From a virus, in IMG/VR virus record IMGVR_UViG_3300006072_000042, positions 1 to 24,495 of that record: 24,495 nucleotides of DNA. One strand, given 5' to 3'. Both the position numbers and the translations under genes were made by a program. Below the pieces are notes generated by a model. It saw only the letters and a list, made by a program, of their open reading frames with translations, was not told the origin of the DNA and ran no database searches. Below, one piece after another: positions 12,330-24,495 of the stretch (its first letter is position 1; each line of letters starts with the position of its first letter).

Positions 12330-13118
12330 TTACACCTGAGTTGAGGTTGCGCTTTGGGGTACAACTTGACCATAACCGGGCTGTTGACTATTAGTATAAG
12401 TATTGGGGTTTAACAATGTAGCCAAGTAATTAAGTTGACTAGGCGCTGTTAAGTTTGATGTTGCCCCTGTTATACCTTGACCAATTGCGTTGGCAGCGCC
12501 TACAGTACCTGCTGCCTGTGCGTTAGCAGCGCCTACACCCAACTGGGCTATGTTAGTGGCGTTGCCTGTAGCAAGGTTAGACAACCCTGTAACAGCGTTT
12601 TGACCAATCCCTGCTATGCCAGCAAGTCGGTTATAAATGTTGGTTTGTTGTGTTTGACCTTGGTTAAACGCTTGTCCTTGTTGCGTCATGTAATTGTTCA
12701 AAGCATTTTGATATGCGCCTTGTGCAGTATTTTGCGTGTAGTCTTCTAGACCTTTTAACGCATTACCACCAATCAAACCGCCAGTCGCATTGTTAGCCAA
12801 ATTGGTCGCTGCCTGACCTTGTTGCAATTGGAACTGGTAATTAGGTGCTAAATTAGCGTTCAGGTCTTGAGCCGTGAATGGCTGATAAGTGGCCTGTGGT
12901 GTTGTTAAATATTGATTCTGAGCATTCAATCCAGCCAAGCCTTGTGCCCCAGTTTGCTGATAAGGAGCATAATTGGGCGCTAGGTTTTGATAATTGGTTT
13001 GTAATTGCTGTTGAGCATTAGAAGCCGCTTGTGCTTGCGTATTGGCAGCAGACTTTGATGCCTGAGAGCCAATTAAGGCACTTCCGATTGTTGCTGCTGC
13101 TAGATATGCAAATGGCAT
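12330..13118 (-). CDS. gp7-like DNA transfer (ejection) protein, 262 aa
   Basis: The product begins MPFAYLAAATIGSALIGSQA, an Ala/Gly-rich hydrophobic helix, followed by SKSAANTQAQAASNAQQQLQ and then APYQQTGAQGLAGL, a pattern typical of phage DNA-transfer proteins of the P22 gp7 kind. The rest is Gln/Asn/Ala-rich with a TGGLIGGNAL segment and repeated helical segments. Such proteins are packaged in the head and ejected to form a conduit for DNA. The ribosome binding site AGGAG lies 6 bases before the ATG, partly in the end of the cupin gene. Confidence 0.72.
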   Translation of the reverse strand: MPFAYLAAATIGSALIGSQASKSAANTQAQAASNAQQQLQTNYQNLAPNYAPYQQTGAQGLAGLNAQNQYLTTPQATYQPFTAQDLNANLAPNYQFQLQQGQAATNLANNATGGLIGGNALKGLEDYTQNTAQGAYQNALNNYMTQQGQAFNQGQTQQTNIYNRLAGIAGIGQNAVTGLSNLATGNATNIAQLGVGAANAQAAGTVGAANAIGQGITGATSNLTAPSQLNYLATLLNPNTYTNSQQPGYGQVVPQSATSTQV

Positions 13119-13120
13119 AA

Positions 13121-13456
13121 TTAACTCCTATAAATCAAAAAATCATCGACATTTTCAGTTTCATCTGTCGCATGAATACAAAACCATACAGAATCTTCTA
13201 ATGCTTCTATTGAATGATTTTTTTCTGCTTCAATAGTAATACAAAATGGCGCAGTTACTTCTTTATTATAGTCTTCTGTAGTAATTTTGACCCTACCTTT
13301 TGCCAGAATTGACAGGTGTGAATAGTGGTGTTTGTGCATCCCAGCGACAAATCCTTTGGGGATAATCATTTGCTTAGAGTACAACCCATCGGCAAATGTG
13401 TGGCCGACTTCTGGATTGATCTCAAAAACACCTTCTAATTCTTTGTTGTAATTCAT
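13121..13456 (-). CDS. Small single-domain cupin, 111 aa
   Basis: Residues 35-65 hold a cupin motif: GFVAGMHKHHYSHLSILAKG, with His41, His43 (or His44) and His47 placed to bind a metal and Gly54 closing the strand. A second conserved-looking stretch has His81 and His95 near the end of the beta barrel. Cupins range from enzymes to sugar- or small-molecule-binding domains; no substrate is evident. It sits between a small structural gene and the gp7-like gene and is ATGA-coupled upstream, so it is expressed with virion genes. It may be a late-expressed enzyme or a virion or assembly factor. Confidence 0.75.
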   Translation of the reverse strand: MNYNKELEGVFEINPEVGHTFADGLYSKQMIIPKGFVAGMHKHHYSHLSILAKGRVKITTEDYNKEVTAPFCITIEAEKNHSIEALEDSVWFCIHATDETENVDDFLIYRS

Positions 13457-13674
13457 AGGTTGTAATAAGGTACTTTGTACTGTTTACCATTGACTGTGAC
13501 TTGCATATAACCGACTGGGCTAGATGGAAGCGCTGGGGTTGTTATAGTCGAGCTAAAGTTCACCATATTCAAAAAGAACTGCTGCCAAGGGCGTGTAGGT
13601 CTTTTAGAACTAGCATCTAAGAATTCAGCCTGTGGGTAAGGGTTGGTCTGGGGTGAACCATAGGTGTTAGCCAT
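13453..13674 (-). CDS. Small virion-associated protein, 73 aa
   Basis: The product contains YPQAEFLDASSKRPTRPWQQ, then FFLNMVN, and ends MQVTVNGKQYKVPYYNL. The TRPWxxFF and xxVNGxxYKxPxY pieces look like a small phage structural or tail-associated protein. Its start overlaps the gp10-like stop as TAATG, and its stop overlaps the cupin start as ATGA. The exact role is unknown; a neck or tail component is inferred from context. Confidence 0.6.
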   Translation of the reverse strand: MANTYGSPQTNPYPQAEFLDASSKRPTRPWQQFFLNMVNFSSTITTPALPSSPVGYMQVTVNGKQYKVPYYNL

Positions 13675-16600
13675 TAGTTCTCCCCTTGGGTCGCTTTAAG
13701 GTTAGCCGACACAATCGTTGCGTTGACTGGATCAGTTACCACCACCTCAAAAATCTTATCCCTAGACCATCCCAAACGTCTCCAAATGGCACGATTCTTG
13801 TATTTGCCAATTTTACCAATGCTGACCCAATGCTCCTTAGACCATGTTGAGCCACCATCGTTAGACCACCTGAGCATTGCTTTAGGATCAACGCCTTGTG
13901 AGCCTTCAAAAGCAGGGCTAGGAATGTTGTACTTTGGAAACTGAAGTGTTAACGCATTGAGCAAAGCCGTAGCAGTTTGTGCGCTAGTCACATTGTGATT
14001 GGCTGTGTACTGCGTAGGATACCCACCAGAGCCGTTTGTTGGCGTTCCTAGCGTGACTTGCGTAGTCGTAACCCGATTGGTCAAAGCAGTCGTTAAATTG
14101 GCTGCAAAGGGCTGAATTGACGTTGGGGGCGCTAGTGTGTCGTTGGTGTTGTACCAAATGTAGAAATGACATTTATTCGTGTAAAAGGTAGGAATAGATT
14201 CCCAACTTGTTAGCGAATAATATGGACTTGCAGCCAATGGCGTTGAGTTAGCCGTGTAAGTGTTGATCAGTCCAACTCCGAATGATCCAATAGGATTCGT
14301 AGCGTCACCAGCACCGACTGTCACCAAGTTCATTGGGCCATAAAGATTCATGCAAGCAGTTGGCCATGTTCCATTGGATTGAGCTTGGGCTATTGTGCCT
14401 TGTAGAGCCAAATAACCGCCTGCGCTGTTACCTGCCACCATCAAACCAAACTGAGCCACTTGTTGTTGTAGGCTAGTCCACAATGCGTTTTGGCTAGGCG
14501 CTGCTGAAGATGCGCCAGGGTTTAACAAGAAGTTAATCACTTGTGCAATGTCGTTAACGTCATTCGGATAGTCACCTGATGGCGTTAGTCTGTAATTAGC
14601 AGAAATAACAACGTAATTGGCCAAAACTATCGGATTGTAGATAGCTGTGTCGCTCGCTTTGTCACCGCCCGACCATCCACCGCCATGAATCCATAGGACT
14701 ACACCATTGGGCATTTGGCCATTCTTGTTGACCACATCCCATGAAGCAGGACTAATAATGTCTACTTTTTGGAGTGAATCAGTCCCATAGGGGATATCTG
14801 ATATTGTTGCGCCTAGAGCTGGAGCACCTAAAGAAACTCCTGAAAAAGAATATGGAGAACTGGAGACCAGAGTAGTGCCTTGACCTGTTTGAGTATTTCC
14901 ACTTATTGCATATCCTGAAATGGCAATACCTGCTATACCTGAAGAGGTATAACTAGCATTGGGGGTTGATAATCCCACGCCTGGCTGAAACTGAATCTGC
15001 AATTCTTCAAAATATTGACGTTGCAAATCAGAAACTAGGTGTGGTGCTCTTCTTAATCTTCTAATTTCTTGGCCGTTTTCTGTGTAATTACTAGGGTCTA
15101 ATAAATAGATATTTCCATTCTGATAGTCCCCAACGTACACAAATCCATTAAATACCGCAGAACAATTACCTCGATGACGATGGTAGACATTGTTATTGTC
15201 GACCGATAGCATTTTGTGCCACATTCCTGTCGTGTTATCCCACACCCAAGTTAAATCTAAACTAGGGAATGTAATAACATAACACTCGTGACCTTCTAGC
15301 TGATAAGTCCAAGCAATTGCGTCTGAGATATTTTGGTTAACCAAAGTTTGCTCAACTGCGTGGGTAGATATCCTAGTTGGCACATAGCCGTTCATCATGA
15401 CGATTTGGCCTTGACCACGCTGATTTCTAGATAGGTAAGCAAATGAGTTACCAACCCTAGAGACCGAGAATTTGGCAATAATGCCGTGTTGAGTTGATGT
15501 GCCAGGTATTCTTTGGAATGGGAAAGGGAATGAACCCACATCCACCCAAACCTCGCTAGACACCTCACCGAGTAGGTAAATCTCACGATGGTCAACAATC
15601 AAAGACACCAAATTATCAGGTGCGCCATCTTTACTAGAGAATTGTAAAGGTGCAGATAACGGGCTTAAAAGGTTACTAGAGCCAAATTGTTGCGTGTTAG
15701 GCCTGTTGTAAACAAATATGTTGTCTACGATGTCCACCACATCAGCGCCAGTAAATGCGCCATCTGTGCTTGGCAATACTGAAAACGCATAAGCCGTCAT
15801 GGTTGACGAATTACCCAAAGGAGAAATGTTGGCTAAAGCTGATGCCCCACCCGTACCGCTGAAACTCAACGCTGGGTTAGAAGTGTAAAAAGAGCCACCA
15901 TTGGCTATTGAATAATCGTTATTTAAGCCAAAAGTGAGCGTAATGGTAGCGTTTTTACCTGTTCCACCGCTAAATGACGCTGCACCCGTTGGAGCTTGTG
16001 TGTACGTTCCAACATTAACAATTGAAACACCAGTAATGACACCGCTAGATACTGTTGTCACTTTGAGTTGGCAAGCAGTCGTATATGTGCCACCAAAAGC
16101 CGTAATGATGTCACCGACTGTGTAACCCGTGCCACCTGATGTGATGCTTGTGCTCACAATCCCAATAGAGTTCCATGTCACCGATGCTATCGTGCCACCA
16201 TAGCCAGGGTTAGCGACTGTAACTGTAGGGGGTGTTGTATAACCTGATCCAGCGCTTAATAGGTTAATTGCTGTCACGCTACCATTAGAAACATAATTAT
16301 TAATGGAATACAAACCCAAACCATTAGCAGAAGTAGGTACTGATGTAATGATCGTGTTGGGGGGTATATTTGTGCCTGTGACGGCTTGACCAACCACCAA
16401 AGGCCCTGAAATGATGCCTGTGACGTTGATCTGATACCCTGAGACGTTACCAATAAACGATGTGGTAATAAAGGTGCTGATATAAATACTATATCTATTT
16501 ACCCCGTCTGTGATCATTACATACAGGCCATTGTCAGCAATACCGACTCGACCTGTTGTGGTTGTTAGGCTACCTAGACTGAACGTGTTACCAGAAGTGT

Positions 16601-16850
16601 CAATTGCGTACACGTTAGCGCCACATATCGCTATCAGGTACTTACCACCAGATATGGTGCGTAGTCCTCGAATCTCAGCGTTGCCTAAATTGGTGAATAA
16701 GGTAAGACCAGGTGTAGGGTAGAGAGCAACAACACCTCTTTGGCCTGGTTGCTTAAGTGGGTCAACTTCAGGCCGAAAGTTAATACACTCCTGATCATCT
16801 TGGTAGATTGATGGAGAAGTGTACGATGGGCCAACAAACCCAAAGTCCAT
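13674..16850 (-). CDS. P22 gp10-like tail-hub/DNA-stabilisation protein with inserted esterase domain
   Basis: The 1058-residue protein begins MDFGFVGPSYTSPSIYQDDQ with ECINFRPEVDP and YPTPGL, and ends with AMLRWSNDGGSTWSKEHW and WRRLGWSRDKIFEVVVTDP: the two conserved ends of gp10-like packaged-DNA stabilisation proteins, which form the hub closing the portal channel in P22. Residues about 365-626 are the beta-propeller-like body. Two foreign blocks expand it. Residues about 131-345 contain a small beta module and Gly-rich repeats such as GSGYTTPPTVTV and GGTGYTVGD. Residues about 627-985 are an alpha/beta hydrolase with HGGGW (722-726), GNSAGG (807-812), Asp904 and His952. P22 gp10 is about 470 residues, so this is more than twice the usual length. 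It overlaps both neighbours as TAATG. Confidence 0.85.
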   Translation of the reverse strand: MDFGFVGPSYTSPSIYQDDQECINFRPEVDPLKQPGQRGVVALYPTPGLTLFTNLGNAEIRGLRTISGGKYLIAICGANVYAIDTSGNTFSLGSLTTTTGRVGIADNGLYVMITDGVNRYSIYISTFITTSFIGNVSGYQINVTGIISGPLVVGQAVTGTNIPPNTIITSVPTSANGLGLYSINNYVSNGSVTAINLLSAGSGYTTPPTVTVANPGYGGTIASVTWNSIGIVSTSITSGGTGYTVGDIITAFGGTYTTACQLKVTTVSSGVITGVSIVNVGTYTQAPTGAASFSGGTGKNATITLTFGLNNDYSIANGGSFYTSNPALSFSGTGGASALANISPLGNSSTMTAYAFSVLPSTDGAFTGADVVDIVDNIFVYNRPNTQQFGSSNLLSPLSAPLQFSSKDGAPDNLVSLIVDHREIYLLGEVSSEVWVDVGSFPFPFQRIPGTSTQHGIIAKFSVSRVGNSFAYLSRNQRGQGQIVMMNGYVPTRISTHAVEQTLVNQNISDAIAWTYQLEGHECYVITFPSLDLTWVWDNTTGMWHKMLSVDNNNVYHRHRGNCSAVFNGFVYVGDYQNGNIYLLDPSNYTENGQEIRRLRRAPHLVSDLQRQYFEELQIQFQPGVGLSTPNASYTSSGIAGIAISGYAISGNTQTGQGTTLVSSSPYSFSGVSLGAPALGATISDIPYGTDSLQKVDIISPASWDVVNKNGQMPNGVVLWIHGGGWSGGDKASDTAIYNPIVLANYVVISANYRLTPSGDYPNDVNDIAQVINFLLNPGASSAAPSQNALWTSLQQQVAQFGLMVAGNSAGGYLALQGTIAQAQSNGTWPTACMNLYGPMNLVTVGAGDATNPIGSFGVGLINTYTANSTPLAASPYYSLTSWESIPTFYTNKCHFYIWYNTNDTLAPPTSIQPFAANLTTALTNRVTTTQVTLGTPTNGSGGYPTQYTANHNVTSAQTATALLNALTLQFPKYNIPSPAFEGSQGVDPKAMLRWSNDGGSTWSKEHWVSIGKIGKYKNRAIWRRLGWSRDKIFEVVVTDPVNATIVSANLKATQGEN
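13896..14972 (-). other. Inserted alpha/beta-hydrolase (esterase/deacetylase-like) domain
   Basis: Within the gp10-like protein, a low-complexity linker (residues about 627-675) leads into a hydrolase fold: DIPYGTDSLQKVDIISP (685-701), oxyanion-hole motif HGGGW (722-726), ANYRLTP (751-757), nucleophile elbow GNSAGG with Ser809 (codon 14424-14426), Asp904 in NTNDTLAPP and His952 in NHNVTS. These are the ordered elements of carboxylesterase/feruloyl-esterase-type enzymes. Immediately after it the conserved gp10 C-terminus resumes at DPKAMLRWSN (988-997). A role in deacetylating host surface polysaccharide is inference. Confidence 0.85.
16272..16460 (-). other. Small beta module inserted in the gp10-like protein
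   Basis: Residues about 131-193 read FIGNVSGYQINVTGIISG, then VTGTNIPPNTIIT and a Gly-Leu-Tyr segment. The same order of motifs (F-[VI]-G-x-[IV]-S-G, V-T-x-I-x-S-G, G-T-x-I-x-P-x-T-x-I, G-x-Y) occurs at residues 78-147 of the gp4-like protein. It appears to be a transferable beta-sandwich decoration. Confidence 0.55.
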
Positions 16851-18763
16851 TATAGGCCTGCCTTTGCAATGAGTTCTTGTACTGCTTGGATCAAATATAC
16901 CATGACAAAACTATTATCAACAGTCTGATAAACAGGTTTGCCGTTTTCATCTACCGCTGTTGCACTACCATTGACCGCTGTGGGAACTACCGCTTGGAGT
17001 TCGTCAGCAATAAAGCCAACGTCTGCTTCATTGCTAGAAATCCACTTAAATGAGCGTGGTGTCAAAGCCTTGATCTTAGAAATACCTACGCCAGACGATA
17101 GTGTTTCAATGTCAGTTTTTAGCCTACGATCTGAAGTTGTTCCATAGGTTGTAGTTGAACCATTTGTGCTAATTGCACCTACTGGAGTAATTGAACTAGG
17201 TGATCCATAACCAAAGAAAATAAGGTTACTGCTTGTACTAGCCACCACCGCAGCGATAGCGTTACTTGAAGAACTGCTTACATACGCACCAAAAGCATTA
17301 CTTGAAGACGCCGTGGATTGTGTGTACAACTCTACAGTATTGGCAAATGTACTAGCCGAACCAAAGTAAGATGCGCCTGTAATCGCCAAGCCGCCTGAAT
17401 AACTGTTACCGACCGCACAAACCGATGCTAGGCTAGGTACAGTTCCTGTAGGCGTTGTCCATTGCCCATTGTTGTTCAAGAAAGTCGATGTATTGCCAGC
17501 AGGAGCAGAAATACCATAACCATTCCAATTAAACGTGCTAGACAAGTACAAATTAGACCAAGCATAACCTGATGCCCCAAGGGTCAGAGCATTGTTACTA
17601 GCAGGAATAAATGAAGAGTTGTACAAGTAAACTTGAGTCGTATTGTTTCCAATACCGATAGTGCTTGCTGACGCTCCGATTCCATAAGTAGTACCAGCAG
17701 GGCCACTAGATGAAACCCCAACACCCACACCACCGAATGTAGAGTTAGTCGTAGTTGTGATACCGCCTGAATAAGTGCTACCAGCAGTCGCTACTTGTTG
17801 CAAAGTAGGTGTCGCTGCCGTCACAGTAGCCCAAGTACCATCACCCCTTAAATAGGTGCTAGAAGACGCTGTGCCAGTTCCTAGGTTAGCTGTGGGCACT
17901 TGGCCTGACCAACTAACAGAAAGCGTGCCATTAGACGTTAAAGGGCTACCAGAGACTGAGAATCCTGTTGGCATTGATAGACCAACTGAGGTCAAACCAG
18001 TACCTGAACCGCTTGGTACAACCCATGAGCCTTGGTTGTTCAAGAACTTAGTAGCATCGCCTGTAGATGTATTAGGTGCTGTTATTGTCGCATTGTTCCA
18101 ATAAAACGTACCAGCTACACCCAAAGATGACCACAATGAAGCAGGAGCACCCAAAGCAATACCGCTATTACTTGATGATCCATTGGAGTAAGGTAAGAAA
18201 GCAGCGCCTGATAAAAGAACTGTGTAAGGTGTGCTTCCACCAAAGTTGCTTTGGATACCGACATAATTACCAGTTGAAGTAATACCATATACAGTAGTAC
18301 CTGATGGAGCATTTAGCTGGTTACCAATACCTACACCACCAAATGATGCGTTACCAGTTAAGGTGTTAGACCAAATGCCATCACCACGCACAAAGGATGC
18401 GTTATTAGGTGTTCCACTAGCTAGATTAGCCACAGGAATTTGACCTGACCAAGTAAGTGCCAAAGTTCCACTTGTCGTAATGGGTGAGCCTGAGACTGCT
18501 AAACCTGTTGGGACACTAAGAGCAACTGAAGTAACTGTGCCACTTCCACCACCACCGCCTGATGGGGTTGCCCAAGTACCATCGTTTCTTAGAAATGTGG
18601 TTGTTGAACCTGTGGGAGCTGCAATAGAGTATCCACCCCACACCGCTGTTGTGAAAGTGATCGAGTTATTAGGAAAAATGCCGGAATAAACAGTCGAATT
18701 AACATCATTAAGCCACGATGACCTGATAACTGTTGTGCCGTCAATAAATGTAGTAGATGCCAT
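16850..18763 (-). CDS. Tail fibre with C-terminal S74 self-cleaving chaperone
   Basis: The 637-residue product begins [20 protein letters not shown], a virion-attachment-like segment, followed by Ser/Gly/Thr-rich repeats. One repeat unit occurs twice (SVPTGLAVSGSPITTSGTLA and SMPTGFSVSGSPLTSNGTLS, each ending in a WSGQ-P-ANL segment and RGDG-W). Shorter FL-N-G-W units recur four or more times. The last 94 residues are a peptidase S74 intramolecular chaperone with SDRRLKTDI (Ser544, Lys549), TPRSFKW and DVGFIADELQAVVP. S74 domains trimerise the fibre and then cleave themselves off just before the Ser. It overlaps the neighbouring genes as TAATG and is a likely receptor-binding fibre. Confidence 0.88.
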   Translation of the reverse strand: MASTTFIDGTTVIRSSWLNDVNSTVYSGIFPNNSITFTTAVWGGYSIAAPTGSTTTFLRNDGTWATPSGGGGGSGTVTSVALSVPTGLAVSGSPITTSGTLALTWSGQIPVANLASGTPNNASFVRGDGIWSNTLTGNASFGGVGIGNQLNAPSGTTVYGITSTGNYVGIQSNFGGSTPYTVLLSGAAFLPYSNGSSSNSGIALGAPASLWSSLGVAGTFYWNNATITAPNTSTGDATKFLNNQGSWVVPSGSGTGLTSVGLSMPTGFSVSGSPLTSNGTLSVSWSGQVPTANLGTGTASSSTYLRGDGTWATVTAATPTLQQVATAGSTYSGGITTTTNSTFGGVGVGVSSSGPAGTTYGIGASASTIGIGNNTTQVYLYNSSFIPASNNALTLGASGYAWSNLYLSSTFNWNGYGISAPAGNTSTFLNNNGQWTTPTGTVPSLASVCAVGNSYSGGLAITGASYFGSASTFANTVELYTQSTASSSNAFGAYVSSSSSNAIAAVVASTSSNLIFFGYGSPSSITPVGAISTNGSTTTYGTTSDRRLKTDIETLSSGVGISKIKALTPRSFKWISSNEADVGFIADELQAVVPTAVNGSATAVDENGKPVYQTVDNSFVMVYLIQAVQELIAKAGL

Positions 18764-19731
18764 TAAATGAAGCCCCCATGTAAGATAAACCCAGCATCCC
18801 TAGTCTTAGTGGATGTGAGTACATTGTCATAACGTGCCAACTGGACAGGTCGCATATTCGTACGCTTAATCGTACTCTTACCTTGGGCAGCGTAACTCTG
18901 AATCATGCCGATTTGGACCGGACTAGCCTTACCATACATAGGCATTAGTCTTTCGGCTAAACACCATCTTAAAGCCATGTTATAGCCTTCTGGAAGTGCC
19001 ATAACGTCATACATGGATGTGTTTCTAGTGAAAATGTTGTCCGCAAACAAATGGACTTCACCTTGCGCTGGGTTAGGCCATAAAAAGATATTGCCCAATA
19101 TTTCTGTGGGTTGATAGTAAACCGCTTTAGGCCAAGGGCCGTTAAGAGTTTTCAAACCGATCATTTCGTACTCTTCAACATTGAGCACAGAAACAGGGTA
19201 ATCTAGTCCACCGCCTGTAATAGCAACCCCATTTGAGGTCGTATTAACACGCACAAAAGCACTATTTAACATAAGTGGGCGCTTATAGTAGCCCACAATC
19301 GTAGTCGATGCGACAGTTTGGCTTACATTAAGTAAGTAAGTGCCCGCTTCCAATACTTGCCCACCAGCGCCTGTGCCAAATCCTACAATGGTCGTGCCTG
19401 GCGTGATGCCAGTTCCACTCAAAACCATGTTCATTGAGACCGCACCGCTATTAATGGATGTGACTGTGAGCACATTTCCACTTATTGAACCTACAAAATT
19501 GGCCTGAATTGTGCCTGTAGGGCCAATGGAGTATTGGGTTTGACCAGGTGTTACGTTAAATACTATTTCTGTCTTGTAAAAGACCATCATAGACTCGTTA
19601 GACCATTGATCTAACATATCTTGCAGCATATCAAAAGCGTCTTGTGCTGCTTCTGGCGTGGGTATTTCGCCAGCTTCTAATGCGCCTATGTCTTTTAACG
19701 CTCTGCTAATGATGTCTATGGGTTGTGTCAT
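18763..19731 (-). CDS. P22 gp4-like tail accessory/adaptor protein with inserted module
   Basis: The product begins [20 protein letters not shown], followed by [20 protein letters not shown] and DQWSNES, the helical start of gp4-like head-tail adaptors. Later [17 protein letters not shown] (205-221) and [17 protein letters not shown] (246-262) are also characteristic. P22 gp4 forms a ring under the portal that joins it to gp10. Residues about 78-147 are an extra beta module ([18 protein letters not shown], then [10 protein letters not shown]) between TIQA and YKRPLML, not present in the usual 160-220 residue proteins. The total of 322 residues is therefore long. The gene lies just before the fibre and gp10-like genes, as expected for neck assembly. 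Confidence 0.8.
19291..19503 (-). other. Small beta module inserted in the gp4-like adaptor
   Basis: Residues about 77-147 carry [18 protein letters not shown] and [14 protein letters not shown], then [17 protein letters not shown]. This block interrupts the adaptor between [10 protein letters not shown]-like and YKRPLML segments and shares its motif order with residues 131-193 of the gp10-like protein. Confidence 0.55.
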
Positions 19732-20440: not shown

Positions 20441-20664
20441 CATCTTCCCCCTAATTCTTTAATCTGTTCGTCAGTCCAAATGGTATTGATTGAGTCTTCA
20501 AAAGCCTTTATCTTTTCCATTGTTGCATCTATTTCTTCCCATGTTGGACATGGTCTTGGATCATCCCAAATGGTAATGTCACGATTGCTAATCTGCCAAG
20601 TAGCATTTGGTCTAAGTAATTGCATGGCAGAATCAATGCCATAGAGTTGATAAATTTTTACCAT
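20440..20664 (-). CDS. Small tail protein resembling XkdW-type proteins, 74 aa
   Basis: The product contains LLRPNATWQISN, WDDPRPCPTWEEIDATMEKI and ends WTDEQIKELGGR. A beta hairpin containing 'LLRPNATW' followed by 'PTWEEI' and a helix is a recurring layout of small phage proteins near tail fibres, tentatively XkdW-like. Its start overlaps the end of the glycine-rich gene by 7 bases. Confidence 0.62.
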   Translation of the reverse strand: MVKIYQLYGIDSAMQLLRPNATWQISNRDITIWDDPRPCPTWEEIDATMEKIKAFEDSINTIWTDEQIKELGGR

Positions 20665-22265
20665 GACAAAATCACAATTCCTGATCCACCATTACCGCCC
20701 GCATATTGTGAAGAATCGTTAGTCGATGCTCCACCACCACCACCACCAGTATTAGCAGTTCCAGCATTTCCATTTCCACCATTTGTAGTGCCAGCATTAC
20801 CACCACCACCAGAACCGCCCGATCCAACAGTTCCACCATCATAAGTGCCTCCACCTCCTCCTCCAGCATAGGTTACGCTAGAGCCAGAATATGAATTGGC
20901 TGTGCCACTTCCACCATTGCCACCAACTGAACCAGCTCCATTTCCACCTATAGCATTTGCACCACCACCACCACCAGCGCCATAATTAGATCCACCTGTG
21001 GATCCATTTCCACCAGAATTTCCTTGTCCAGATGTACCTGAAGCTCCAGTTGTACTAGTTACGCCTGTTCCTCCACCGCCAGAGCCACCCGAAACTGAAG
21101 CATAATAAGTAGAATTATCAGCTCCACCACCATAACCACCACCAACTGCTCCAGTTGATCCATTGACTAATGATCCAAATTTTGAGTTTGTTCCTGATGT
21201 TCCAACATACGCTGTTACACCAGTTCCACCAGCACCAATAGTAATTGTATAAGTATTACCAGAAGTAACACTTAATCCTGTGCCAGTAAGGAATCCACCA
21301 GCACCACCGCCACCGCCTGTTCCTCTAGAAACCCCTACTCCACCACCTGCACCTCCACCACCCACTACCAAATAATTAACACTTGATACGCCTGTAGGTG
21401 CAGTCCATGAACCTGAACCAGTAAAAATAGCAGTTCTTGTTGTGCTTGGTACTTGATAAGAAATGATAACTACGCCAGAACCACCAGTAGTGCCGTTGTA
21501 ACCAGCACCACCGCCACCTCCTGCACCGCCCCCAGTATTGGCTGAACCTGCAACTGCAAGAGGAGAACCACCTTGACCACCATTACCACCACCACCTGTT
21601 CCACCAGTTCCATAAGGTTGTGCTGTGTATCCTCCTCCACCACCACCCCCAGCATAATATACAGTTGTTCCTGTAATAGTAGAAGACAATCCAGCACCAC
21701 CATTACCAGCTTGGCTACTTGTGCCTGCTACTCCTGCTGCATTAGCACCGCCTCCACCTCCACCACTAGCACCACCAACTGCTACACCTCCATTACCACC
21801 TGAATTTCCTTGACCACTAGTTCCAGATGCTCCTGTGCCTGTGTTGCCATTCCATCCCGCACCACCGCCACCAGAACCTCCTGATGCACCATTAGAATGA
21901 CCGCCTCCACCACCACCACCTACTGCTCCAGTTGAGCCATTAACAAGTGAACCAAAGGTAGAGTTACCACCATTTCCACCAACTACTGTAATGCTAGTGT
22001 TTGTTGTCCCACCTGCACCAACAGTGATGGTGTAAGAAGTACCAGGAGTTACTGATAAATTTGTACCAGCTAAAAATCCTCCTGCACCACCGCCTCCACC
22101 TCCATCAGCACCACTACCACCACCACCAGCAACAACTAAATAGTTAATGCTAGTAACACCAGCAGGAGCAGTCCAACTGCTTGTGGAATTAAATTGCTGA
22201 ATTACTGTTGAATAAGTAACTGCTTTTTTTGCCCCACTAAAGAAAAAATTAGGTGCGCCAAACAT
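20658..22265 (-). CDS. Glycine-rich tail adhesin with tandem duplication
   Basis: The product begins MFGAPNFFFSGAKKAVTYST from an ATG two bases after a TAA. A longer frame opens from TTG 22319 or ATG 22295 but would overlap the preceding fibre gene. The 535 residues contain two copies of a roughly 250-residue unit. Each starts SSWTAPAGVTSINYLVVAGG or GSWTAPTGVSSVNYLVVGGG, continues GGAGGFLAGTNLSVTPGTSY (or close) and KFGSLVNGSTGAVGGG, and then has long Gly runs (GGGGG, GGSGGGG). Such glycine-rich domains are known in phage tail tips and adhesins, where polyglycine helices pack in lattices and loops bind receptors. It lies among tail genes, so a receptor-binding role is likely. The gene uses repetitive GGT/GGA codons. 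Confidence 0.75.
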   Translation of the reverse strand: MFGAPNFFFSGAKKAVTYSTVIQQFNSTSSWTAPAGVTSINYLVVAGGGGSGADGGGGGGAGGFLAGTNLSVTPGTSYTITVGAGGTTNTSITVVGGNGGNSTFGSLVNGSTGAVGGGGGGGHSNGASGGSGGGGAGWNGNTGTGASGTSGQGNSGGNGGVAVGGASGGGGGGANAAGVAGTSSQAGNGGAGLSSTITGTTVYYAGGGGGGGYTAQPYGTGGTGGGGNGGQGGSPLAVAGSANTGGGAGGGGGAGYNGTTGGSGVVIISYQVPSTTRTAIFTGSGSWTAPTGVSSVNYLVVGGGGAGGGVGVSRGTGGGGGAGGFLTGTGLSVTSGNTYTITIGAGGTGVTAYVGTSGTNSKFGSLVNGSTGAVGGGYGGGADNSTYYASVSGGSGGGGTGVTSTTGASGTSGQGNSGGNGSTGGSNYGAGGGGGANAIGGNGAGSVGGNGGSGTANSYSGSSVTYAGGGGGGTYDGGTVGSGGSGGGGNAGTTNGGNGNAGTANTGGGGGGASTNDSSQYAGGNGGSGIVILSW

Positions 22266-22266
22266 A

Positions 22267-24495
22267 TTATGCAAACGCCTGTGCGTAAGTGCCATACCAA
22301 ACAGAGTTAATACATACAAACGAAAGTATGTCTAAGCCTGTGGAAGCAGTTGTTGTGATTGTGGGTGCTGTGCCACTAGGCCACTTAACCCCAGTAAACG
22401 TAGCAGTTCTAGAACCTGTGCCATCTTGAATTAACTTTAAAATAAACGATGTGCCTGACGTTGCAGTTGGCATGGTAAACGTACAGTTACCAGTCAATGT
22501 GTAGCTAAGAACAGTTCCTGAAGACAGAGACAAAGTAACTGCTGTACTTGAATTAGTCAAAGCAGGAGCAGTCTCTAGATACGATGTGATCGTAGGATTA
22601 GTTAAAGTCTTGTTGGTAAATGTCTCAGTACCTGCCAAAGTAGCCAAAGTGCCAGTAGTAGGCAATGTTACGTTGGTGTTTGCTGTGACTGTTAACGTAG
22701 TGGTAAATGCACCTGAAGTGGTAAATGAACCACCCAAAGTGATGGTATTTGAACCATTATTTACCCCAGTTCCACCATAAGTAGCACCAATAACTGATCC
22801 ATTCCATGTGCCAGTTGTGATAGTACCTATGGATGCTAGGCTAGACAAAGTGGTAACTGCTGTGTTAATTAATGTGCCTGACGTTGGCAAAGTAACAGAA
22901 GTGTTGCCAGTTGCTATAAATGTCTGTGTGTAAGCACCTGAATGAGTCACATTACCAGCCAAGGACAAAGTACCTGTGCCAAACGTCAAACTTGACCCTG
23001 AACCACTAAAAGCAGTTGTTGTTAGTGTTCCTGTGCTTGGGTTGTACTGTAACTTAGTAGAACTTGTGTAAATCGTTGACAAAGTGCCTGATGTTGCACT
23101 TGTAAAGTTCAGATATCGAGTGCTATTTGTACTCGTATCGTCAGTAATCGTTGTGCTTGAAGCAGTTGATGCCCATGTAGGAACACCACCTGCAAGGGTT
23201 AAAACATAGCCATTTGTGCCAGCAGAGAGCTTAGACAAGGTATTTGTAGCACTTGCATACAAAATGTCACCTGTCGCATAAGTTGTCTGCCCAGTTCCAC
23301 CATAAGTAGCGCCAATCGCTACGCCATTCCAAGTTGTATTGGTGATCGAACCAGCCCAATTTAGGGTATTTGTCGACCAAGAAGCGTTAGATGGTGCTCC
23401 ATAGTGGTAATCCCAAGTACCTGCAGCCACACTATTCGTTAACAAAGTTAAGGTTACAAACCCGCCACTCGGCACGGAAACAATCAATGTCCCTGAGTTG
23501 TTGTTAATAGTAATAGCACCGCTAGTTTGGTTGTTGTTGAATGTGTAAATAATCCCTGCGCTTAAAGTCGTGGCATCAGGCAATTTAAATGTCTGACCAC
23601 CTGACCCTGTCACCACCCAATTAGGGGTTGAACTAGCCAATAATGTGGTCGTTGTGCCCGCTGCTGCAGTATTTGTAAACCCAGCGTAAAAGATGTTAGC
23701 AGTGGCGTTAGCGTTAGTGTCTCTTAAAACCACGCTAGAAGCGCCAGAACTAGAAGTAACACCTGTACCGCCATTAGCGACTGCAAGAGTTCCTGCTAGG
23801 GTTACAGCGCCTGTTGTGGCTGTGTTTGGGGTTAAACCTGTCGTTCCAGTACTAAAAGATGATACTGTGCTGATATTACCCCAAGATGGTATTCCACCAG
23901 AGAGTGTCAAATACTGGCCATTAGACCCAGCCGCCAAAAATGACGTTGTCCCAGACCCTGTTTGGTAAGGTAAAGAACCATTAGCACCACCTGTTAGGTT
24001 AGTAGCCGTGGTAGCTGTGGTTGCAGTAGACGCATTACCTGTCAATGCGCCCACAAATGTTGTTGTGGTTAGCGTGTTGCTAGATGGGTTAAATGTTAAC
24101 CCTGTGCTGACGTTCTCTTGGGTAATTACACCGCTTGTAGCACTTGTAAACGCTAAATAGCGTGATGCGTTAGTGGTAGTGTCGGTTACGATGGTTAAAC
24201 CAGACCCACCTTGCGCCCAACTGACGTTAGTTCCATCAGTTTTTAGGAAATAACCAGCATTTCCTGTTTGACTAGGCAATAGGTTAGTCAAAGCACCAGC
24301 AGAAGATGTAGCGCCTGTACCGCCTGATCCAACCGCTAAAGTACCACCAATTGTGATTGTTCCGCTAGATACGATAGGGCCACCAGAAGTGGTTAATCCT
24401 GTTGTACCGCCTGATACTTGAACGCTCGATACACCGCCCGCAGCACTCGTAAATGGCAAGCCAGCAGGCCCAATAAACGTAATGAACGATAGTGT
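22267..24495 (-). CDS. Large repetitive tail fibre, 5' end outside window
   Basis: The frame is open to the right edge; the first visible residues are TLSFITFIGPAGLPFTSAAG, so the true start lies beyond the window and the TTG at 24459 should not be used. About 742 residues are visible. They are built from Ser/Thr/Gly-rich repeats with the motif GGTG (TLAVGSGGTGATSS, TLAVANGGTGVTSS, IGATYGGTGQTTYA, IGATYGGTGVNNGS) and repeated RYLxFTSATSG and LTLxGGxPxW units. The C-terminus (TFTGVKWPSGTAPTIT, then DILSFVCINSVWYGTYAQAF) is a compact beta domain often seen at fibre ends. It is probably a long trimeric fibre. Confidence 0.82.
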   Translation of the reverse strand, partial: TLSFITFIGPAGLPFTSAAGGVSSVQVSGGTTGLTTSGGPIVSSGTITIGGTLAVGSGGTGATSSAGALTNLLPSQTGNAGYFLKTDGTNVSWAQGGSGLTIVTDTTTNASRYLAFTSATSGVITQENVSTGLTFNPSSNTLTTTTFVGALTGNASTATTATTATNLTGGANGSLPYQTGSGTTSFLAAGSNGQYLTLSGGIPSWGNISTVSSFSTGTTGLTPNTATTGAVTLAGTLAVANGGTGVTSSSGASSVVLRDTNANATANIFYAGFTNTAAAGTTTTLLASSTPNWVVTGSGGQTFKLPDATTLSAGIIYTFNNNQTSGAITINNNSGTLIVSVPSGGFVTLTLLTNSVAAGTWDYHYGAPSNASWSTNTLNWAGSITNTTWNGVAIGATYGGTGQTTYATGDILYASATNTLSKLSAGTNGYVLTLAGGVPTWASTASSTTITDDTSTNSTRYLNFTSATSGTLSTIYTSSTKLQYNPSTGTLTTTAFSGSGSSLTFGTGTLSLAGNVTHSGAYTQTFIATGNTSVTLPTSGTLINTAVTTLSSLASIGTITTGTWNGSVIGATYGGTGVNNGSNTITLGGSFTTSGAFTTTLTVTANTNVTLPTTGTLATLAGTETFTNKTLTNPTITSYLETAPALTNSSTAVTLSLSSGTVLSYTLTGNCTFTMPTATSGTSFILKLIQDGTGSRTATFTGVKWPSGTAPTITTTASTGLDILSFVCINSVWYGTYAQAFA

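Follow-up and report, generated by a model that had tools for sequence, protein, structure and literature searches.

A predicted esterase domain within the tail hub protein of a P22-like freshwater podovirus

In short-tailed phages, the tail hub counts as a structural gate and plug, while the enzymes that act on the host surface are assigned to fibres and spikes, which are exchangeable. Because enzymes that trim bacterial surface sugars are normally carried by fibre or spike proteins of their own, the hub is an unusual place for an esterase. Here we address a locus that raises this question directly: IMG/VR record IMGVR_UViG_3300006072_000042, of which we analysed a stretch of 24,495 bases (the full record length; hereafter, the window). 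We ask whether its hub gene codes for a P22-type hub, whether the domain inside it is a complete enzyme, where on the tail that domain would stand, and what it could do there.

The hub gene (13674..16850, minus strand) is uninterrupted across all 1058 codons, and by its profile match and predicted fold the product is a P22 gp10-type tail hub or head-closure protein with two inserts. The profile match is PHROG 578, 'head closure Hc3' (E 4.8e-97); in a sequence search, a profile built from insert-free hubs recovered the solved hubs of P22, Sf6, Pam1, and Pan3. Modelled residues 36–608 align with P22 gp10 in situ (8eap) at Z 35.2 (rmsd 2.7, 330 residues aligned), and fold comparison also matches the propeller to the Sf6, Pan3, and Pam1 hubs and, more distantly, to phicrAss001, SU10, and GP4. 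Insert-free hubs from deposited phages and IMG/VR have ~487 residues and align with three parts of the protein: residues ~1–134 (16449..16850, minus strand), comprising the N-terminal platform part and the first propeller blades; residues 350–626 (14973..15803, minus strand), comprising the remaining propeller and the first C-terminal platform strand, and ending in QIQFQPGVG; and residues 986–1058 (13677..13895, minus strand), the C-terminal platform part (VDPKAMLRWSNDGGSTWS...), which matches phrog_19101.

The neighbouring genes tell the same family. Upstream lies a likely gp4-like head–tail adaptor gene (18763..19731, minus strand; phrog_637, head-tail adaptor Ad3, a weak match at E 1.8e-4); between adaptor and hub lies a tail-fibre gene with an S74 chaperone (16850..18763, minus strand; Peptidase_S74 at E 1e-12, plus tail-fibre PHROGs); and downstream of the hub is a DNA ejection protein gene (12330..13118, minus strand; phrog_598, 'DNA ejection', E 6.8e-17), in the P22-type order that relatives share. 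Since the hub is surrounded by these genes, the window is a fragment of a P22-like podovirus. Core profile, propeller fold, and adaptor–hub–ejection gene order are like those of P22 gp10 and Sf6 gp8; P22 gp10 differs in its 472 residues, in a short turn at the site of the 350-residue esterase, and in lacking the N-terminal insert. Two further products were noted in passing. A small cupin-like protein (13121–13456; Cupin_2 at E 3e-5, below the cutoff) directly follows the hub gene, and a gene for it occupies the same place in contigs L003 and L007 and in several esterase-less relatives, with no match in L004, L005, L006, or L008. A product with a glycine-rich Pfam domain (20658–22319; E 1.4e-39) coincides with a strong GC skew, to -0.43, that differs from its surroundings.

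An initial annotation of this DNA had described both gp10-like ends of the hub as intact; at the start this stands only to residue ~134, because an N-terminal insert, missed there, follows (residues ~135–349; 15804..16448, minus strand). This first insert consists of beta-rich repeats at the propeller blade 2/3 position and is modelled with pLDDT mostly 75–93 in the full-length hub; short hubs are without it, and its length among hubs falls into classes near 0, 140, 225, and 310. Its position is that of the Ig and nozzle domains in SU10 and phicrAss001. The SU10 nozzle and phicrAss001 muzzle proteins share the propeller (Z ~22–24) and likewise have extra domains in the hub, a principle already familiar; unlike the esterase, these are Ig-like or crass-fold domains inserted between blades 2 and 3, on the tip side, and no enzyme is reported there (PMC9509320, PMC10172136). 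A beta repeat is common to the first insert and the adaptor-like protein (19285–19557; 34% identity, E 3e-5), as if one small module decorates both tail rings.

The second insert is the domain in question. The interval 13896–14972 encodes hub residues 627–985, which by profile and model hold a complete esterase of the HSL/BD-FAE type: an N-side linker (residues 627–682; 14805..14972, minus strand) carrying the GIAGIAISGYAISGN motif, an alpha/beta hydrolase (residues ~683–975; 13926..14804, minus strand), and a short C-side linker (residues 976–985; 13896..13925, minus strand). Profile searches split the protein cleanly—the hub goes to PHROG 578, and the esterase to PHROG 3341 (E 2.6e-11), Pfam BD-FAE (E 1.6e-15; 57.7 bits against a cutoff of 26.8), and Abhydrolase_3 (E 2.7e-15; 57.2 bits against 25)—in agreement with the earlier reading of an insertion in a gp10 homologue, here between hub residues ~626 and ~986. 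The isolated domain, modelled using 22 aligned relatives, reached a moderate mean pLDDT of 63.6 (pTM 0.70; core blocks ~73–88) and has the strand–helix alternation of the alpha/beta-hydrolase fold that the annotation had proposed. Foldseek leads from this model to HSL-like carboxylesterases (E to 1.4e-10), and its best solved match is 3aik (VIA-align Z 21.8, rmsd 3.2, 242 aligned).

The catalytic residues are present and in order, exactly at the residue numbers first assigned to them. Sequence alignment gives an oxyanion-hole motif of the HGG kind, HGGGW (residues 722–726; 14673..14687, minus strand), followed by Ser809 in GNSAGG (14424..14426, minus strand), Asp904 in YNTND (14139..14141, minus strand), and His952 in TANH (13995..13997, minus strand); neither the alignment nor the fold match shows a misplaced triad. 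Ser809 and His952 are invariant in all 22 aligned esterases, and Asp904 is conserved in the three hub variants and the phage relatives. The oxyanion motif is HAGSW instead of HGGGW in L005 and L006, and a bacterial homologue (L105) has HAGAW. The ordered, conserved triad suggests that the hub esterase would be catalytically active.

The same fusion, at the same junction, recurs in IMG/VR in six further contigs (L003–L008), which come from five metagenomes and represent three diverged versions. Their esterases are 82–100% identical, the diverged versions standing at 89% and 82% to the window. Nei–Gojobori dN/dS for the esterase is 0.035–0.109 between variants, similar to the hub parts, and 0.25–0.49 for the N-side linker between diverged variants, which indicates relaxed constraint there; the values are rough, because synonymous sites are near saturation or saturated in several comparisons. 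By this measure the esterase is under purifying selection, like the hub core.

How the domain came to stand there is suggested by the hubs that lack it. In the close group, insert-free hubs run from QIQFQPGVG through a loop to DPQAMLRWSNDGG, with small variations. This loop has 5–51 residues in 191 of 195 distinct hubs; the other four, from one clade, carry the esterase, which bears out its presumed rarity, and no other large domain was found at this junction among the 195. On a tree of 119 hubs, built with the loop left out, the loop switches between size classes at least 21 times. The esterase-bearing rows form one branch (support 99) within a group of 13 rows, the remaining nine of which have loops of 34–37 residues. 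From this tree we infer that the esterase clade arose once, in phages with a 34–37-residue loop, by gain rather than loss. The loops of these nearest esterase-less hubs carry AVAGIAIAGLAVSGN, a motif shared with GIAGIAISGYAISGN in the N-side linker; the esterase therefore seems to have been inserted into that loop, behind the shared motif and before the following GVDP. Such frequent change marks the platform loop as a size hotspot, which fits an exposed position.

The esterase has its closest relatives on other viral contigs, namely L286 (62% and 56% identity in two pieces), followed by L283 (50%), L284 and L285 (45%), L287 (33%), and L288 (28%). The gene directly follows a tail-fibre gene in L283, lies between tail-fibre genes in L288, and follows a structural-protein gene in L284. 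These phage esterases branch together, apart from the included bacterial and stand-alone viral esterases (100/99), the latter grouping with the bacterial branch and not with the hub esterase. HSL-like and BD-FAE carboxylesterases, such as 3aik from Sulfolobus tokodaii and those of Chitinophagaceae, share the fold, the HGG motif, and the Ser-Asp-His order; they differ in being free or lipoprotein-like (the Chitinophagaceae esterases have lipoprotein-like N-termini) and are 18–30% identical. The bacterial relatives recovered, mostly Chitinophagaceae proteins, share 18–29% identity over the alignment. A recent capture directly from a bacterial gene is not supported, with phage relatives at 45–62% against 18–29% for the bacterial ones aligned and a branch of the phages' own.

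Searches for nearer sources were negative within their scope. Deposited phages gave no close relatives (only partial matches of 20–40%), L283 had no close deposited relatives, and none were found in plasmids. A set of about 700 genomes, drawn from the two phyla to which a Caulobacterales MAG and a Chitinophagaceae MAG (G002 and G003) belong, had no match at E <= 1e-15—a weak negative, as the set included no positive control.

Several of the viral-contig relatives have architectures of their own. A fibre-like phage protein of 563 residues (L286:1209-2897; one contig only) holds an esterase whose Asp/His half precedes the half with HGGSW and GSSAGG; because the halves stand in reversed order, we read this as a circular permutation, with the triad complete and 56–62% identity to the hub domain (the halves were set in native order for the esterase tree only). 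Proteins of 680, >1697, and 731 residues (L283:3983-6022, L284:3899-8989, and L288:3989-6181) have a related esterase at their start; a Pfam Ig-like domain stands behind it in L288, and L283 and L288 apparently have a C-terminal region in common.

Where on the tail would the domain lie? By alignment, the insertion site corresponds to P22 gp10 residues ~399–406, so that the esterase occupies the hairpin between the C-terminal platform strands that follow the propeller ("platform" in T7 terms). The platform faces the adaptor in T7 (PMC6702177) and in SU10 (PMC9509320), and at its level the T7 channel is ~18 Å wide (PMC6702177); six domains of ~300 residues must therefore be outside. In the full-length model the propeller and first insert are good and pLDDT falls to ~20–40 from residue 601 on, so the orientation of the hairpin rests on homology and space, which together would place six esterases laterally, on the exterior of the tail collar.

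The P22 gp10 hub is a hexamer and also binds the tail needle. If the hub here is hexameric too, the exchange of a hypervariable, surface-exposed platform hairpin for an active HSL/BD-FAE carboxylesterase would encircle the tail collar from outside with six enzymes, at the height of the adaptor and the appendage attachment zone and each on a long, flexible N-side linker. At adsorption, these esterases would remove acyl groups, most likely O-acetyl, from a host surface polysaccharide, and de-esterification would help the tail to pass through the glycan layer. We consider this reading, with an exterior six-fold ring acting on host glycan at adsorption, reasonably probable. Its substrate and adsorption role are proposed by analogy: in G7C (gp63.1), Moo19, and B2, tailspikes with esterase activity work on the polysaccharide of the host surface and are needed or act at adsorption (PMC10743462, PMC11654681). 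They are virion-borne esterases, as the hub esterase would be; in contrast, they are separate tailspike proteins, whereas here the carrier is the hub ORF itself rather than a separate spike or fibre protein.

The main rival holds that the hydrolase fold was kept and serves only to bind host glycan. The long tail fibre of DEV offers a parallel, as its gp53 has a carbohydrate-esterase-like domain for which the authors propose a role in adsorption only, and LPS hydrolase activity went undetected in the virions (PMC10925440); like our case this is an esterase-like domain on a podophage tail, but carried by a trimeric long fibre and not by the hub. The variation of the oxyanion motif in L005 and L006 would also suit a binding function. 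Against this, the triad is kept in three diverged variants and the domain is strongly constrained, and we regard pure binding as unlikely.

An enzymatic role has also been imagined on the virion axis, where the initial annotation suggested that the esterase could modify cell-surface glycans or envelope lipids at channel opening. In favour of this, the channel runs through the hub, and the long linker (residues 627–682) could allow esterases to reach down to the tail exit. The site itself speaks otherwise: the insert is in the adaptor-facing C-terminal platform hairpin, the blade 2/3 tip site is taken by the other insert, and a channel like that of T7 is too narrow for the esterase. The axial placement is thus not upheld, and we think a gate enzyme improbable. 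Even less plausible is an enzyme with an intracellular or assembly function that is joined to the hub solely so as to be packaged; some esterases of the wider family in viral contigs do look stand-alone (L290, L300), but stand-alone phage forms fall outside the hub esterase branch, and entry of the hub into the cell would be unexpected from general knowledge of P22. Finally, an assembly chimera, named at the outset as what would undo the finding, or a frame artefact is conceivable when the virus record offers only a 24.5-kb fragment; both are effectively ruled out by independent, diverged contigs with one junction, an open frame, and purifying selection.

We return, then, to the proposed ring of active esterases on the outer face of the hub. 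Its component parts are known, and the place of the esterase in the hub is new as far as we found: no precedent for an esterase in a podophage hub turned up in the open-access papers searched, and no esterase is known to us to be built into such a hub. Whether the channel-closing hub is itself enzymatic in adsorption through a loop esterase, a module that also occurs in fibre loci and once in permuted form, we hold to be evenly balanced. In this freshwater short-tailed phage, a complete esterase, as predicted, sits inside the conserved ring protein by which the tail channel is closed. The case marks a platform loop with room for a 350-residue domain in a hub whose core is strongly constrained; it would provide a hub with a built-in enzyme, through which a part for the hub's outer face in host-surface recognition or processing becomes testable.
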